Part shown: positions 4,106 to 31,949 of the stretch, piece by piece
How positions within the stretch are numbered: position 1 is the first letter of the stretch
Layout: every line of letters begins with the position of its first letter
Source of the DNA: an uncultured Pelagibacteraceae bacterium
GTDB lineage: Bacteria > Pseudomonadota > Alphaproteobacteria > Pelagibacterales > Pelagibacteraceae
Direction: 5' to 3'
Assembly (NCBI GenBank): GCA_902521355.1
Contig: CABYRT010000002.1
Location: 1 to 64,000, forward strand
DNA: 64,000 nucleotides
Program-made: the position numbers and the translations under genes
The notes under the pieces: generated by a model
Seen by the model: only the letters and a program-made list of their open reading frames with translations
Databases searched by the model: none
Told to the model about the DNA's origin: nothing

Positions 4106-6679
4106 ATGCAAAAAAACGAAGTAACTAAAGATTTAAATATCAAACCAATTTCAATGTATGATGAAATGAGTTCATCATATTTATCTTACGCCATGAGCGT
4201 AATAATTAGTAGGGCATTACCCGACATAAGAGACGGACTTAAACCTGTTCACAGAAGGATTTTATATGCAATGCACAAAGGTGGTTTCGATTGGACAAAA
4301 CAATTTAGAAAATCTGCAAGAATTGTTGGAGACGTAATTGGTAAATACCATCCGCATGGTGATCAAGCTGTATATGATGCTTTAGTAAGAATGGTTCAAG
4401 ATTTTTCAATGAGTGTTCCGTTAATTGATGGTCAGGGCAATTTTGGTTCAATCGATGGAGATCCACCTGCAGCAATGAGGTATACAGAAACCAAACTTGC
4501 AAAAATTTCTCAATTTTTGATTGATGATATAGAAAAAAATACCGTTTCATTTAAAAGTAATTACGATGAAACTGAGCAAGAACCCACAGTATTGCCAGCT
4601 CAATATCCTAATCTTTTGGTAAATGGAGCTGGAGGTATTGCTGTTGGTATGGCAACTAGTATACCACCACATAATCTTGGTGAAATTATTGATGGAACTT
4701 TAGCTCTTATAAAAAATAAAGATATTAAAGTTAAAGAGTTAATGAAGCATATACCTGGCCCTGATTTTCCAACAGGAGGAGTTATTATTGGTAAAGATAT
4801 TATTCGAGAAGGATACAAAACCGGCAGAGGTTCTTTTAAGATTAGGGGTGAAATAAATGTTGAAAATCTTAAAAATGGTAAAGATAGATTAGTAATTACA
4901 TCAATACCTTATCAAGTAAACAAATCTAACTTAAACGAAAAAATTGCAGAATTAGTTAGAGACAAAAAAATCGAGGGTATAAGTGACATTAGAGATGAAT
5001 CTAATAGAGAAGGAATAAGAGTTGCTATAGATTTAAGAAGAAGTGTCGAGCCAGAAACAATCAAAAGACAACTTTATAAATATACATCCATTGAAACCTC
5101 ATTTGGTTTTAATTCATTAGCAATTGTTGATAACAAACCTAAAACATGTTCATTAAAAGATTTCTTAGAGAACTTTTTAAAATTTAGAGAAGATGTAGTT
5201 ATTAAAAAAACCAAATACGATTTAAAAAAAGCTGAAGATCGTGTTCATGTTTTACTTGGTTTATCTGTTAGTGTAGAAAATATTGATAAAGTAATAAAAA
5301 TTATTAGATCTTCAAAAAATCCAGAAGAAGCAAAAAATACTCTTATAAAAACTAAATGGAAAATAACAAAATCTGCAAAATTAATTAAATTAGTTGATAG
5401 TAAAAATTATAAAGGATCATACAGCCTATCTGAAACTCAAGTCACATCAATACTAGAACTTAGATTACAAAAATTAACTGCCCTTGGAATTAATGAAATT
5501 GAAGAAGAAATAAAAAAATTATCTGAATTGATTACAAAGTATAAAAAAATAATAAATTCTAAAAGCGAACTATTAAAAGTAATAAGTAATGAGTTATCTC
5601 AAATTAAAGAGAAATTCTCATCTCCGAGAAGAACACAGATTATAGATGCTGTTTTAAACTATAATATTGAAGAAACTATTCAAAAAGAGTCTGTGATAAT
5701 TACAATTACTTTACAGGGATACATAAAAAGAGGTGCCTTAAGTAATGTTAAACAACAGAAAAGAGGTGGAAAAGGCAAAACGGGAATTAAGACAAGAGAC
5801 GAAGATTCTGTAGTACAAACATTATCAGTAAATACACATACATCTGTTCTATTTTTCTCTACTGAAGGATTGGCATACAAAGTTAAAGCTTGGAAAATTC
5901 CAGAAGGATCGGCTGCATCAAAAGGTAAGTCTTTATTTAATATTCTTCCTTTAAAAAATCATCAATCAATTAGTTCAATTATGCCATTTCCAGATAGCGA
6001 TGTTGATACAAAAGATATGCATATCATTTTTGCAACTAGTGAAGGAAAAATTAGAAAGAATAATCTTGAAGATTTTACCTCAATTAACGCTTCAGGTAAA
6101 ATTGCAATGAAGCTTGACGGTAATGATAAAATTATAGGTGTTAAAATCTGTAGAGATGATCAGGATATAATTTTAAGTACTAAATTAGGAAAATGCATAA
6201 GGTTTGAGTCTAAAAAACTTAGAGTTTTCAAAGGTAGATCATCAAAAGGCATAAGAGGTATCAATTTGGCAGAAAATGATACTATCGTATCTCTGTCTAT
6301 TATTGATCATGACACAAATAAGAAAGCAAAAACTAAAGACCAAAAATCTGAAGTTAAAGCTAAAGAAAAGTTCATCTTATCTATTACAGAAAATGGTTAT
6401 GGTAAGAGAACATCTCATTATGATTATAGAGTTACAAATAGAGGAGGAAAGGGAATTATTGGCATTGTAAATTCACAAAGAAACGGGAATGTTTCTTCAT
6501 CCTTTCCTGTTTTTGAAGGAGATCAAATATTAATTTCAACAAATAAAGGTAGAGTAATAAGAACAGCTGTTAAAGAAATAAGAATAGCTGGTCGTAATAC
6601 GCAAGGTGTTAGAATAATTAAACTGACTGGTGATGAAAAAGTAGTTTCTGCTATTAAATTAGATGATAATCTTATTTAA
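4106..6679 (+). CDS. gyrA: DNA gyrase subunit A
   Basis: [33 protein letters not shown]; catalytic AAMRYTE; C-terminal beta-pinwheel repeats with a GyrA-box-like segment KQQKRGGKG. Confidence 0.97.
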
Positions 6680-23618: not shown

Positions 23619-23695
23619 CGGGGTGTAGCGCAGCCTGGTAGCGCACTTGGTTTGGGACCAAGGGGCCGTAGGTTCAAATCCTACCACCCCGACCA
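23619..23695 (+). tRNA. tRNA-Pro (anticodon TGG)
   Basis: CGGGGTG/CACCCCG acceptor, CTTGG-TTTGGGA-CCAAG anticodon arm, GTAGG-TTCAAAT-CCTAC T-arm, encoded CCA. Confidence 0.96.
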
Positions 23696-23697
23696 TT
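23672..23697 (+). repeat. attL-like direct repeat GTTCAAATCCTACCACCCCGACCATT within tRNA-Pro
   Basis: Exact 26-bp identity with 25437-25462. Confidence 0.9.
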
Positions 23698-23763
23698 AAA
23701 ACTCAATTATATCAATATTTATTTCATCATAAATCGAAACTAGAGGATTAATCAGAGGATTAA

Positions 23764-25173
23764 TTATTGTGTTATTAATTTTGTTTGTTCAATAATAAAT
23801 TTTGATTTCTTAGATAATTTGTTTAATTCTTTTTCAATTTCTTTTTTTAGTTTATTAATTTCAACTTTCTTAATACCTTTTTTATACAAAAGAACTATTA
23901 ATACTATACCAACCAAAAAACCAATTAGTTTACTTATACTGTCGATATCGAAAAAACCTATCGCAAATTTTATTAGTATAGTTAATCCCGCAGATTTTGC
24001 GGCACCCGTAATTATAGATTTTCTTTGTTCTTCATCTTTAAAATCATTTTTTATGACTGAGATAATTAAAGTTATAGCTAATACTATAAGTGCAAGTGGA
24101 TTACCAAAAGATCCTGTTACAGATAAAAAACCGTATACACTTCCCAATTTTTCCTTATTTTTTCTTGTTGATGGAAATAAATAGTAGGCAACAATAAAAC
24201 ATACATTTAAAACTTCCTGAAAATTGTATGTTAAAAAATCATATAAATCATTTTTATCAACACCCAGAGGTTTTAAAAAAGAATGAAAATTATCAAAGGT
24301 TTCTTTTTTAACACTAATTATAGGTAAACCCATAGTGGTTTGAACATCTTTAGCAAATTCATTTACAAATGCTATAAATTCAGCGACATTACTATCATTT
24401 GGTAGTGTATCTTTTACTTTTTGAGCCATTTCATGCAGTGTGTGAGACTCATCATGAAGCCTATGGTAGGGACCACCCATACCTGATTTGTCTAAATTAT
24501 AATTTTTATCAACATTAAATTTATAAATATTATCAGTGTCAGCAAAAATGTCTTTCGTAAGATTGTCAATTTCCCTTGAAAGATTGTCTGAAGATAAAAC
24601 ACCTGAATATAGTGCAGTAAATTTTTCAAAGATTTTATTATATTCTAGATTTCCTGAGTAATAATCTTTTTTAAATTTTGATGCTCTTGTTACATTACTA
24701 TGAAATGAAACTCGTAAATGAGCTTTAATGTGTTTCCTGATTTCTTCATCAGAATTTTCTCTAGATAAAACCAAATCAATATCTTTCGATTGAGTATATT
24801 CAATCCAAAATGCAGATAAATGCTCAATATCTAATTTATCAAGATATTCTTTTTCAATTTGATCAAATAATTTGTAAGCATTTTCATAAATATATTTTCT
24901 AAGATTTTCAATAAGTTCTTTTTGATTTGTTTGATATGGTAAGTTTAAAGCAAATGCTAGTGCCTTCAATTCTCTATCTGACAAAGTATCATTTAGATAT
25001 CTATCGGGTTTAAAAACATATAAACAAATCTTATAATTAATATTTCTTCTGTATTTAGATCTAGGTGGGTTTTTTCCAGTTACTTTATTATAACCAATCC
25101 TAATCCAATGTAATAAGTTCAGAGATGAAAATATTTCATCAAGTAATTTTTTATATTTAAGATCTTTATTCAT
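23764..25173 (-). CDS. Mini-island cargo: membrane protein of unknown function with N-terminal SAP-like helical segment and HRLxDExHTL motif
   Basis: ORF 23764-25242. The ATG at 25173 (MNKDLKYKKLLDEIFS) is the more likely start. Segments: LSDRELKALAFALNLPYQTNQKELIENLRKYI; GPYHRLHDESHTLHEMAQKVKDTLPNDS; two to three C-terminal hydrophobic helices. Confidence 0.75.
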   Translation of the reverse strand: MNKDLKYKKLLDEIFSSLNLLHWIRIGYNKVTGKNPPRSKYRRNINYKICLYVFKPDRYLNDTLSDRELKALAFALNLPYQTNQKELIENLRKYIYENAYKLFDQIEKEYLDKLDIEHLSAFWIEYTQSKDIDLVLSRENSDEEIRKHIKAHLRVSFHSNVTRASKFKKDYYSGNLEYNKIFEKFTALYSGVLSSDNLSREIDNLTKDIFADTDNIYKFNVDKNYNLDKSGMGGPYHRLHDESHTLHEMAQKVKDTLPNDSNVAEFIAFVNEFAKDVQTTMGLPIISVKKETFDNFHSFLKPLGVDKNDLYDFLTYNFQEVLNVCFIVAYYLFPSTRKNKEKLGSVYGFLSVTGSFGNPLALIVLAITLIISVIKNDFKDEEQRKSIITGAAKSAGLTILIKFAIGFFDIDSISKLIGFLVGIVLIVLLYKKGIKKVEINKLKKEIEKELNKLSKKSKFIIEQTKLITQ

Positions 25174-25232
25174 TGATTCAAATAAAAAGCTGCAATTAAA
25201 GCAACTAATTCTAAAGCAATTAATATCTCCAT
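25170..25232 (-). CDS. Candidate 20-aa hydrophobic micro-ORF coupled by ATGA to the cargo gene
   Basis: MEILIALELVALIAAFYLNQ*; its TGA overlaps the ATG at 25173. Confidence 0.45.
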   Translation of the reverse strand: MEILIALELVALIAAFYLNQ

Positions 25233-25436
25233 AAACTAACATAGCTTATAGAGCGGCAGGTTTCTATACTGCCACCCCGTGGTATTTAAGAGGATTTTGA
25301 GAGGATTTTAGATTAGCCAACCGCAACACTCTCAGTAAAATCAATGATGATTTATATGGATATTTGTCAATTTTTCTAATTCAATTAATAAAAGAATTAG
25401 TATAAACACTTATCAAATTGGAGTTTTAGGTGACAA

Positions 25437-25462
25437 GTTCAAATCCTACCACCCCGACCATT
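25437..25462 (+). repeat. attR-like direct repeat GTTCAAATCCTACCACCCCGACCATT
   Basis: Exact 26-bp copy of the tRNA-Pro 3' end; no other tRNA sequence attached. Confidence 0.9.
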
Positions 25463-25464
25463 TT

Positions 25465-25746
25465 ATGAAAAAAGCTAAAATTTATAAACCATCAAAAACT
25501 GCCATGCAGTCAGGATTAAAGAAATTTGATAAATGGATTATAGAATACATTACTGATGACCCTGGCACAAATCCTTTGATGGGGTGGGAGAGTTCTACGG
25601 ATACCTATGGTGAATTAAAATTAGAATTTTCCACAAAAGAATTGGCAATTGAATATGCAAAAAAAAATAATATTGATTTTGAATTAATAGAACCAAATAA
25701 AAGAAAAATTACTTTAAAATCTTACGCTGATAATTTTACAAAATAA
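25465..25746 (+). CDS. NDUFS4-like ETC complex I accessory subunit family
   Basis: AKIYKPSKTAMQSG...PLMGWESSTDT...LEFSTKELAIEYAKKNNIDF...KSYADNF. Confidence 0.92.
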   Translation: MKKAKIYKPSKTAMQSGLKKFDKWIIEYITDDPGTNPLMGWESSTDTYGELKLEFSTKELAIEYAKKNNIDFELIEPNKRKITLKSYADNFTK

Positions 25747-30169: not shown

Positions 30170-31006
30170 ATGTTTTCAATTATTATTCCAACATATAATA
30201 ATTTAAATTATCTTAAAATTTGCTGTAATAGTTTAAAAAAAAATTCAGAGTTTAAAAATGAATTAATATTACACATTAATGATGGAAGCGATGGATCATT
30301 AAAATATGCTAAATCAAATAATATTAAATTTACTTTTTCAAAAAATAATATTGGATTATGTAGTTCTGTAAATTTAGCTGCTAAAAAATCAACAACAAAT
30401 TTTATTCTTTATGCACATGATGATATGTATTTTTGTCCTGAGTGGGATAAAATTCTCAAAGAAAATTTAGATAAACTAAATACAAAATTATTTTATTTAT
30501 CTGCAAGTATGATTGAACAAAATGGTGGTCATATAAAATATGATTGTGGGTCCGATTATAATAATTTTGATGAAAAAAAACTACTAGAGAATTTTAAAAA
30601 TTTTAAAAGTAGGGATTTTCAAGGTTCTCACTGGGCACCTCATTTAATTCATAAAGAAATATGGGAAAAAATTGGTGGATTTAGTGAAGAATTTAATCCC
30701 GGTGTAGGATCTGACCCTGACTTAAATATGAAATTATGGATTGAAGGTGTTAGAATTTTTAAAGGGATATCAAAATTTAGAGTATATCACTTTGGATCTG
30801 TCTCTTTAAGAAAAAAATCTCATTTAAAAAAAAACAAAGGTTCTAAAACTTTCTTAAAAAAATGGGGTATCACAACATCTTTTTTTAAAAAATATTATTT
30901 AAGATCTGATTCTGAATATTTTGGCCCTCTTGATGAACCAAAAAAAAATGTTAATTTTTATTTTTCTTTGTTGGGGTGTAAATTAAAATATTTTTTTACA
31001 AATTAA
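30170..31006 (+). CDS. Family 2 glycosyltransferase
   Basis: FSIIIPTYNNLNYLKICCNSL, LHINDGSDGS, LYAHDDMYFCPEW. Confidence 0.9.
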   Translation: MFSIIIPTYNNLNYLKICCNSLKKNSEFKNELILHINDGSDGSLKYAKSNNIKFTFSKNNIGLCSSVNLAAKKSTTNFILYAHDDMYFCPEWDKILKENLDKLNTKLFYLSASMIEQNGGHIKYDCGSDYNNFDEKKLLENFKNFKSRDFQGSHWAPHLIHKEIWEKIGGFSEEFNPGVGSDPDLNMKLWIEGVRIFKGISKFRVYHFGSVSLRKKSHLKKNKGSKTFLKKWGITTSFFKKYYLRSDSEYFGPLDEPKKNVNFYFSLLGCKLKYFFTN

Positions 31007-31949
31007 TTTTATTTAATGCATTATTTTTAAATATATTTGCCTCTCTAATATATCTTCTAACCATTTGTGTTGATTTATGACCTGTCATGGCCATTATGCT
31101 CCGTTCATTAGCGCCCGATTCTGCAGCAACTGTGGCAAAACCTGATCTTAAACTGTGACCAGCAAAATTTTTATTTTCGATTCCTGCTAAATTTAAATAT
31201 TTTTTCATCAATAAAACTACTGATTGGTCACTTAATCTTTTATCTGTTAATGATAAACCTTTTGAAAATCTTCTAAAAATAGGTCCAGACTTAATTTTAG
31301 AAATTTCTAACCATTTTTTTAGATTTGTAACAGGACAGTAAATTTGATTATCAAAGTAGGGTAGTCCTTTAATCATTCCTTCTCCGAATTGGTCAGTTTT
31401 TGATCTTTTAATATTGATTTTTAGACCCTCAGGAACAAATTCTAAATCCTCATGATCAATTGAAATGAGCTCAGTTCTTCTAAAGCCCCCTCCAAAGCCA
31501 ATTAAGATTATTGATTTATCTCTTAGTTTTTTAATTTCCTTATATTTTTGATCATTTATTACATTAATAATTGATTTTAAATGATTGATTAGTATAGGTT
31601 TTTTACCTTTCTGAATGCTTCCTTTGACCCTTCTTATTCCCATTAAATTTTCAACGATGATTGGATGTTTTGTGTCTAGATAATGCCCTTTAAGCCTATG
31701 AACCATGCTTATTGATACTAATCTTCGTCTTAAAGTGCTTATTTTTGAGTTTTTAGAGAGATGGGTTAGGTATATGGAAACTATTTTTGGTTCTGTTGGT
31801 AAAGAATTTAATCCATGCTTTGAGCAAAAAGTTCCAAAGTCTTTAAAGTCAGATTTATAAGCTCTTAAAGTATTGTTTGCCTTTGAGCTTTTGAGGTTAT
31901 TCAAAGTTGCTTCATGAAGCGATTTTAGGTCTGTTGTCAGTTCATTCAT
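30996..31949 (-). CDS. Tyrosine recombinase/integrase
   Basis: Catalytic residues visible: GGGFRRTELISI (R), KTD (K), HSLRSGFATVAAESG (HxxR), GHKS (H), RRYIREA (Y). Confidence 0.95.
   Translation of the reverse strand: MNELTTDLKSLHEATLNNLKSSKANNTLRAYKSDFKDFGTFCSKHGLNSLPTEPKIVSIYLTHLSKNSKISTLRRRLVSISMVHRLKGHYLDTKHPIIVENLMGIRRVKGSIQKGKKPILINHLKSIINVINDQKYKEIKKLRDKSIILIGFGGGFRRTELISIDHEDLEFVPEGLKINIKRSKTDQFGEGMIKGLPYFDNQIYCPVTNLKKWLEISKIKSGPIFRRFSKGLSLTDKRLSDQSVVLLMKKYLNLAGIENKNFAGHSLRSGFATVAAESGANERSIMAMTGHKSTQMVRRYIREANIFKNNALNKINL

Follow-up and report, generated by a model that had tools for sequence, protein, structure and literature searches.

The tRNA-Pro locus of the window, the whole 64,000-nt stretch of DNA analyzed here from contig C2 of the Pelagibacteraceae (SAR11-type) assembly G000 (1.16 Mb, 85% complete), contains a recent, precise insertion. 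We classified the inserted element as a gene cassette that is bounded by tRNA repeats and new in its architecture; it resembles a non-autonomous partner of phage integration. Judging from its sequence and from those of related elements and phages, it probably represents a phage-type attP joined to a cargo gene, with the integrase supplied in trans by a phage.

Insertion at the tRNA-Pro gene and empty sites in relatives

The target gene, tRNA-Pro(TGG), was identified with ARAGORN and Rfam on the forward strand (23619..23695) and is intact after the insertion. An exact repeat search located its 26-bp 3′ end, the attL core (23672..23697, forward strand), and a displaced copy of the same sequence, the attR core (25437..25462, forward strand). 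The first chromosomal gene past the insertion is NDUFS4-like (25465..25746, forward strand; PF04800, E=3.6e-31). The 26-mer occurs exactly only at these two positions in the whole window, with a spacing of 1,765 bp, and the chance expectation of an exact 26-bp repeat was 0.00, as none of 100 window shuffles gave even one match. According to ARAGORN and Rfam, the distal copy is a 3′ fragment only and not a second tRNA. An earlier note on this DNA had described the tRNA-Pro end repeated 1,765 bp downstream, right before NDUFS4, and an interval with one large gene and no recombinase; the exact match and the ORF and profile searches confirmed both statements.

NDUFS4 was detected in 143 of the 201 genomes that were sampled from the genus, and the tRNA-Pro/NDUFS4 locus was compared in 29 relatives with fetched loci. 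The site was empty in 25 of them, with a single core copy and the tRNA-Pro 3′ end within approximately 10 bp of the NDUFS4 start codon. The nine nearest relatives, in which NDUFS4 was 96–99% identical at the amino acid level and the flanks were 90–92% identical at the nucleotide level, were all empty. The remaining four carried a short spacer or an unrelated gene without the distal repeat. In addition, at least five other genomes contained different cargo at this position. The empty sites and the alternative cargo, together with the attP-like ends described below, support the interpretation of the repeat as a footprint of site-specific integration at a tRNA gene, whereas an unrelated duplication of a tRNA fragment was rejected, since a complete phage-like attP arrangement accompanies the repeat. 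Thus, the element is almost certainly a site-specific insertion for which relatives retain the empty site.

Several loci resembling insertions were rejected as elements. In L016, L018, and similar cases (G004, G006, G065, G073, and G162), tRNA-Pro and NDUFS4 are separated by ordinary genes, and the distal repeat is absent. Methyltransferase- or glycosyltransferase-like genes without a distal repeat were observed at the same position in L075, L076, L077, L078, L081, and L082. Because genes lacking the distal repeat occupy this position in other relatives, the tRNA-Pro/NDUFS4 spot is variable beyond the cassettes. An apparent insertion in G007 was also discarded: the contig break there represents an overlap of one and the same sequence. 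The break (L079, the end of C18, and L080, the start of C33) coincides precisely with the tRNA-Pro 3′ end, and the two contigs overlap there by about 127 nt, which gives the impression that the reads contained two different continuations of the tRNA.

Searches for the core, arms, and right end revealed at least five further Pelagibacterales genomes with integrase-less elements at tRNA-Pro, which measured 1.2–2.6 kb where complete. The element of G015 (AG-414-L03; 1,187 bp) encodes a 297-aa unknown protein, that of G166 (SCGC AAA795-A20; 2,078 bp) a DUF2167 protein and a PrsW-type protease, and that of G343 (AG-913-L03; 2,616 bp) a 220-aa protein and a PIF1-type helicase. The element of AG-898-C07 (1,402 bp) carries an HNH nuclease with a weak SRA-like region and a 79-aa ORF, and in AG-430-D17 only the right part was available, with DUF2167/PrsW cargo as in G166. 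None of the six tRNA-Pro elements encodes an integrase. No phage structural or integrase gene was detected among their cargo, where the PHROG matches of the sister elements belonged to general nuclease and helicase families only, and no ICE or IME gene was recognized in these elements. Carriage of this element type is rare, since the right-end pattern was detected in only 4 of 399 sampled genomes of the genus.

A comparison of G166 with AG-430-D17 showed that the cargo was 96.1% identical at the nucleotide level, whereas the downstream chromosome was 67–75% identical and the P modules only 67%. This shows that the cargo moved recently and became attached to different ends.

Element ends and phages with a tRNA-Pro attP

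The two ends of the window element contain paired arm sites. On the P′ side, the pair AGAGGATTAATC/AGAGGATTAATT (23742..23765, forward strand), with a 12-bp spacing, lies 46 and 58 bp from the core end. On the P side, the pair AGAGGATTTTG/AGAGGATTTTA (25289..25310, forward strand), with an 11-bp spacing, lies 148 and 137 bp upstream of the distal core. The latter pair opens a conserved 148-bp P module (25289..25436, forward strand), which is 70–78% identical to the modules of the five other elements and homologous to the attP of tRNA-Pro phages. A conserved dyad, CTAATTC...GAATTAG, was found in the sequence inside the module (25376..25400, forward strand); in G015, both of its arms have changed together, to CCAATTC...GAATTGG.

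The same geometry was observed throughout the family. All six right ends carried tandem arms of the AGAGGAT type exactly 148 and 137 bp before the distal core, and all five complete left ends carried 12-bp-spaced arms 46 and 58 bp past the proximal core, with a third arm at 70 bp in G166. The recombination core was the tRNA 3′ end in all copies. Among 399 genomes of the genus, the 22-nt arm pattern was confined to the tRNA-Pro mini-elements.

A degenerate second copy of the tRNA core, 74% identical, is present beside the P arms of the window element (25253..25279, forward strand; p=0.003–0.01) and may be the scar of an earlier att site. AG-898-C07 has another such copy, immediately beyond its P arms (L118, near 4940–4965; p 0.003–0.01). 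It might be speculated that these copies are scars of a collapse between tandem elements.

Scanning IMG/VR for the core revealed contigs of uncultured phages. They contain only the tRNA 3′ end, as an attP, with their own integrase gene 544–769 nt away; in L275, L315, L318, L295, and L320 the site adjoins a 384-aa integrase (PF00589, 5.9e-8; PHROG integrase). The tRNA match and the low GC content suggest that these contigs belong to SAR11-infecting phages, probably pelagiphages. In all five tabulated contigs, the P-side arms (AGAGTGT) occupy positions 148 and 137 bp, which is the same geometry as in the elements, and the P′-side pairs are likewise 12-bp spaced, at 45/57 or 34/46 bp versus 46/58 bp in the elements. 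Alignments of the P modules of the elements with those of phages L275, L320, and L236 gave z values of 5–9.4, above all 300 dinucleotide shuffles. A pattern common to the P modules of elements and phages matched nine stretches in IMG/VR, eight of which were these phages. The elements therefore have a core and two groups of arm sites, the conserved positions of which agree with those in integrase-encoding phages, and their ends are very likely of the phage attP type.

Three further contigs, L371, L372, and L374, encode a related integrase (44% identity) and use another att core, GTTCAAATCCTACGAACA, with AGAGAGT arms at 148/137 bp (in L374, the pattern matched at 148 bp only). Because phages with related integrases keep the 148/137 positions with other arms, the arm geometry appears to be conserved while the letters vary by clade. 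The AGAGG(A/G)T letters of the elements point to an unsampled phage clade. Neither exact-match scans covering part of IMG/VR nor the searched genomes of the genus yielded a phage or island that combines AGAGG(A/G)T arms with an integrase. The inspected matches from the exact-pattern IMG/VR scans for the element right end and arms had no att context. A blastn search of INPHARED with the right end and four other elements returned tRNA-like stretches only, and a tblastn search of the same database with the phage integrase gave no match.

Cargo gene and cassettes at other tRNA genes

The only real ORF between the two core copies lies on the reverse strand (23764..25242, from the ORF list). It is 492 aa long, with a probable start at 25173 (codon 24), which would give a protein of 469 aa. 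The protein has two hydrophobic segments close to the C-terminus and conserved residues in the pattern HRxxDxSH...QTxMGxP. Its C-terminal half is approximately 29% identical to 291- and 295-aa proteins of two other mini-elements, and it was detected in only 3 of 201 genomes. No family was found for it in Pfam, PADLOC, NCBIfam, PHROGs, or PDB, a tblastn search of INPHARED gave no match, and AlphaFold without homologs reached a pLDDT of 43. Our guess is a membrane-associated accessory role. The suggestion of defense cargo in the earlier note found no support for the window gene, which lacked PADLOC, Pfam, and PHROGs matches. Some sister elements carry nuclease-like cargo, and possible defense-type cargo in other elements includes the HNH protein with the weak SRA-like region and NOV_C/DUF3427, with weak PADLOC support.

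Relatives of the window cargo were found in two other genomes, where they again lie in units that lack an integrase and are flanked by repeats of a tRNA 3′ end. In G175 (L474/L072, G175:C21), the unit of 1,909 bp is located at a tRNA-Met and has TGCGTCA arms, and two units are arranged in tandem. In G071 (L073, G071:C6), a unit of 2,127 bp with AGTGTGT arms lies between two tRNA-Thr fragments. The left border in L073 has no full tRNA-Thr. At positions 4660–4770 of the same locus, the ORF of an M23 peptidase ends inside the displaced tRNA-Thr fragment, so that its last codons derive from the tRNA anticodon arm.

The sequence following 154 tRNA genes in six genomes, chosen partly as known carriers, was surveyed over a distance of up to 6.5 kb and yielded nine repeat-bounded units of 0.58–2.6 kb, none with an integrase. 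They were located at tRNA-Pro (G000, G166, and G343), at one tRNA-Met (G343 and G166; two units), at tRNA-Leu (G343), at tRNA-Thr (G166), and at another tRNA-Met (the tandem pair of G175). All nine matches of the survey were anchored at a tRNA, and the second match in G175 covers both members of the tandem pair. The loci of the further units are L423 and L431 in G343 and L444 and L453 in G166, and most of the units outside tRNA-Pro have arm repeats of their own. The same tRNA genes were free of repeats in most of the other surveyed genomes. The tRNA-Met elements of G343 and G166 share a cargo protein (46% identity), which is encoded in opposite orientation in the two elements, and the ends of these elements differ. 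A paired-arm statistic differed from shuffles (p <= 0.03) in 9 of 12 elements. The test was designed after the tRNA-Pro elements had been seen; the remaining elements are partly independent tests. The statistic missed the visible arms of the G166 tRNA-Pro element, and no arms were scored for the G166 tRNA-Met and G343 tRNA-Leu elements.

These observations allow a tentative proposal, which we consider possible but somewhat short of probable: SAR11 may possess a general integron-like cassette system, in which elements of one to a few genes, consisting of nothing but a phage-mimicking attP and cargo, fall into classes specific for different tRNAs and different phage integrases, exchange cargo between their attP modules, and move solely by means of phage integrases during infection.

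Source of the integrase and comparison with known elements

In the mechanism that we propose for the window element, a non-autonomous cassette, with one cargo gene between the P′ and P halves of a complete phage-type attP, would enter the tRNA-Pro 3′ end through site-specific recombination. The enzyme required for this would act in trans and would be the tyrosine integrase of a phage with the same attP architecture and arms of the AGAGG(A/G)T type. In the predicted excised circle, the element 3′ end GGTGACAAGTTCAAATCC would be joined through the core to GACCATTAAAACTC, and entry into the next cell could occur by transduction, natural uptake, or a co-infecting phage. We infer each of these parts, namely SAR11 as the phage host, the action of the enzyme in trans, the excision, and the route into the next cell. 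The phage integrase family was not detected in 181 searched genomes of the genus, including that of the window, and the weak matches corresponded to the core recombinase. A phage integrase acting transiently in trans is the simplest account. The dependence on a trans-acting integrase assumed in the earlier note is strongly favored, and the helper itself is a prediction.

We also considered that the element might be a decayed prophage, in which a tRNA-Pro phage lost everything except the two att halves and one moron gene. The attP architecture is indeed phage-like and homologous, and decay to elements with only attL and attR is known for ICEs and IMEs, which give rise to CIMEs (PMC5704250). However, at least six carriers have been found at this site, all of them small, with no recognized phage structural or integrase gene and with cargo that is nearly all different. 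The elements also share arm letters unseen in any phage found here, their cargo families recur at other tRNA genes with other ends, and two hosts whose flanks have diverged carry almost the same cargo, which implies recent movement as a cassette. This makes decay an improbable explanation.

A second candidate is the resident core tyrosine recombinase (30996–31949, 317 aa), encoded 5.5 kb away from the element. A PF00589 search of the six carriers detected one protein per genome and two in AG-898-C07, the common one being this core recombinase. It is the sole PF00589 protein found in five of the six carriers, including the assembly of the window (approximately 85% complete), G343 (96% complete), and G166 (92%), and in several carriers it lies near the tRNA-Pro locus. 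Given its completeness, the assembly of the window might lack an integrase gene of the genome, although the more complete G343 and G166 likewise yielded the core recombinase only. However, the enzyme is encoded in 149 of 201 genomes and in 26 of 29 near-complete ones, a distribution that does not follow that of the rare elements, and it was rejected as a dedicated helper because it is a core gene. Its size and an N-terminal SAM-like match are Xer-like, and SAR11 perhaps has no other Xer-type enzyme; recombination by Xer enzymes is not known to involve arm sites at a distance. In addition, BLASTP revealed no similarity between this enzyme and the integrase of the phages with which the cassette shares its attP architecture. 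We therefore regard integration by the core recombinase as very unlikely. An integrase from another genomic island or a plasmid is hardly credible, for although integrase-bearing tRNA islands exist in these bacteria, the second PF00589 protein of AG-898-C07 (L165) is a 451-aa integrase of a separate island whose integrase gene follows tRNA-Thr rather than tRNA-Pro and whose att flank has no AGAGG arms. Moreover, outside the tRNA-Pro elements the arm pattern was not found in any of the 399 genomes, while an exact match to the geometry exists in phages.

The window element is close to several known systems. Gene cassettes of small size that terminate in tRNA repeats are known, under the name of additive flexible islands, from “Ca. 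Actinomarinales” (PMC7771536) and “Ca. Methylopumilus” (PMC10872708). According to the sections of these reports consulted here, such cassettes of streamlined aquatic bacteria are small, are located at tRNA genes, end in a repeat of the tRNA 3′ end, and vary in content among close relatives; the window element is likewise bounded by tRNA repeats, and its site is empty or occupied by other cargo in relatives. The same sections describe no arm sites, phage attP architecture, missing-integrase rule, or reassortment of cargo and ends, and the cassettes of the window type differ from the islands described there in that a complete attP-like module accompanies just one or two genes. CIMEs, defined as decayed ICEs or IMEs that retain attL and attR without recombination or transfer genes and are mobilized in cis by accretion (PMC5704250), resemble the window element, which keeps attL and attR and has no recombinase or transfer gene. 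They differ in that no ICE or IME relic was seen in the tRNA-Pro elements, the ends of which are homologous to phage attP.

Phage satellites, among them PICMI, have genes of their own for an integrase and for excision and replication (PMC10803314). They share with the window element a small size, a marine origin, a probable dependence on phages, and site-specific insertion, but the window element encodes no integrase, excision, or replication protein. Tycheposons are described as elements of 4–200 kb with a tyrosine recombinase and a tRNA border (PMC10872708, after Hackl et al.). They also occur in marine streamlined hosts and carry cargo genes at a tRNA border, whereas the window element is 1.8 kb (1,765 bp) long and has no recombinase. 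The likeness to satellites and tycheposons raised in the earlier note is therefore only loose: the defining integrase is absent, and the size falls below the 4–200 kb of known tycheposons. A pelagiphage with a tRNA-Leu attP has been described (PMC3861242). Close counterparts are the phages with a tRNA-Pro attP (of the L275/L315/L320 type), which share the tRNA 3′-end attP, the 148/137 geometry, and a homologous P module but encode an integrase together with a phage genome and have AGAGTGT rather than AGAGG(A/G)T arms. In the open-licence literature, tRNA-repeat cassettes themselves have already been described, whereas the phage attP architecture and the reassortment of ends and cargo seem to be new.

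SAR11 is the most abundant bacterial group in the ocean. To our knowledge, few mobile elements are known in it. A cassette with its mobility reduced to an attP would come close to the minimum for an integrative element. The repeat of a tRNA 3′ end combined with arm pairs spaced by 11 or 12 bp at both ends provides a searchable signature for such cassettes. If the proposed mechanism is true, phage infection would be both a threat to the cell and a route of gene delivery.
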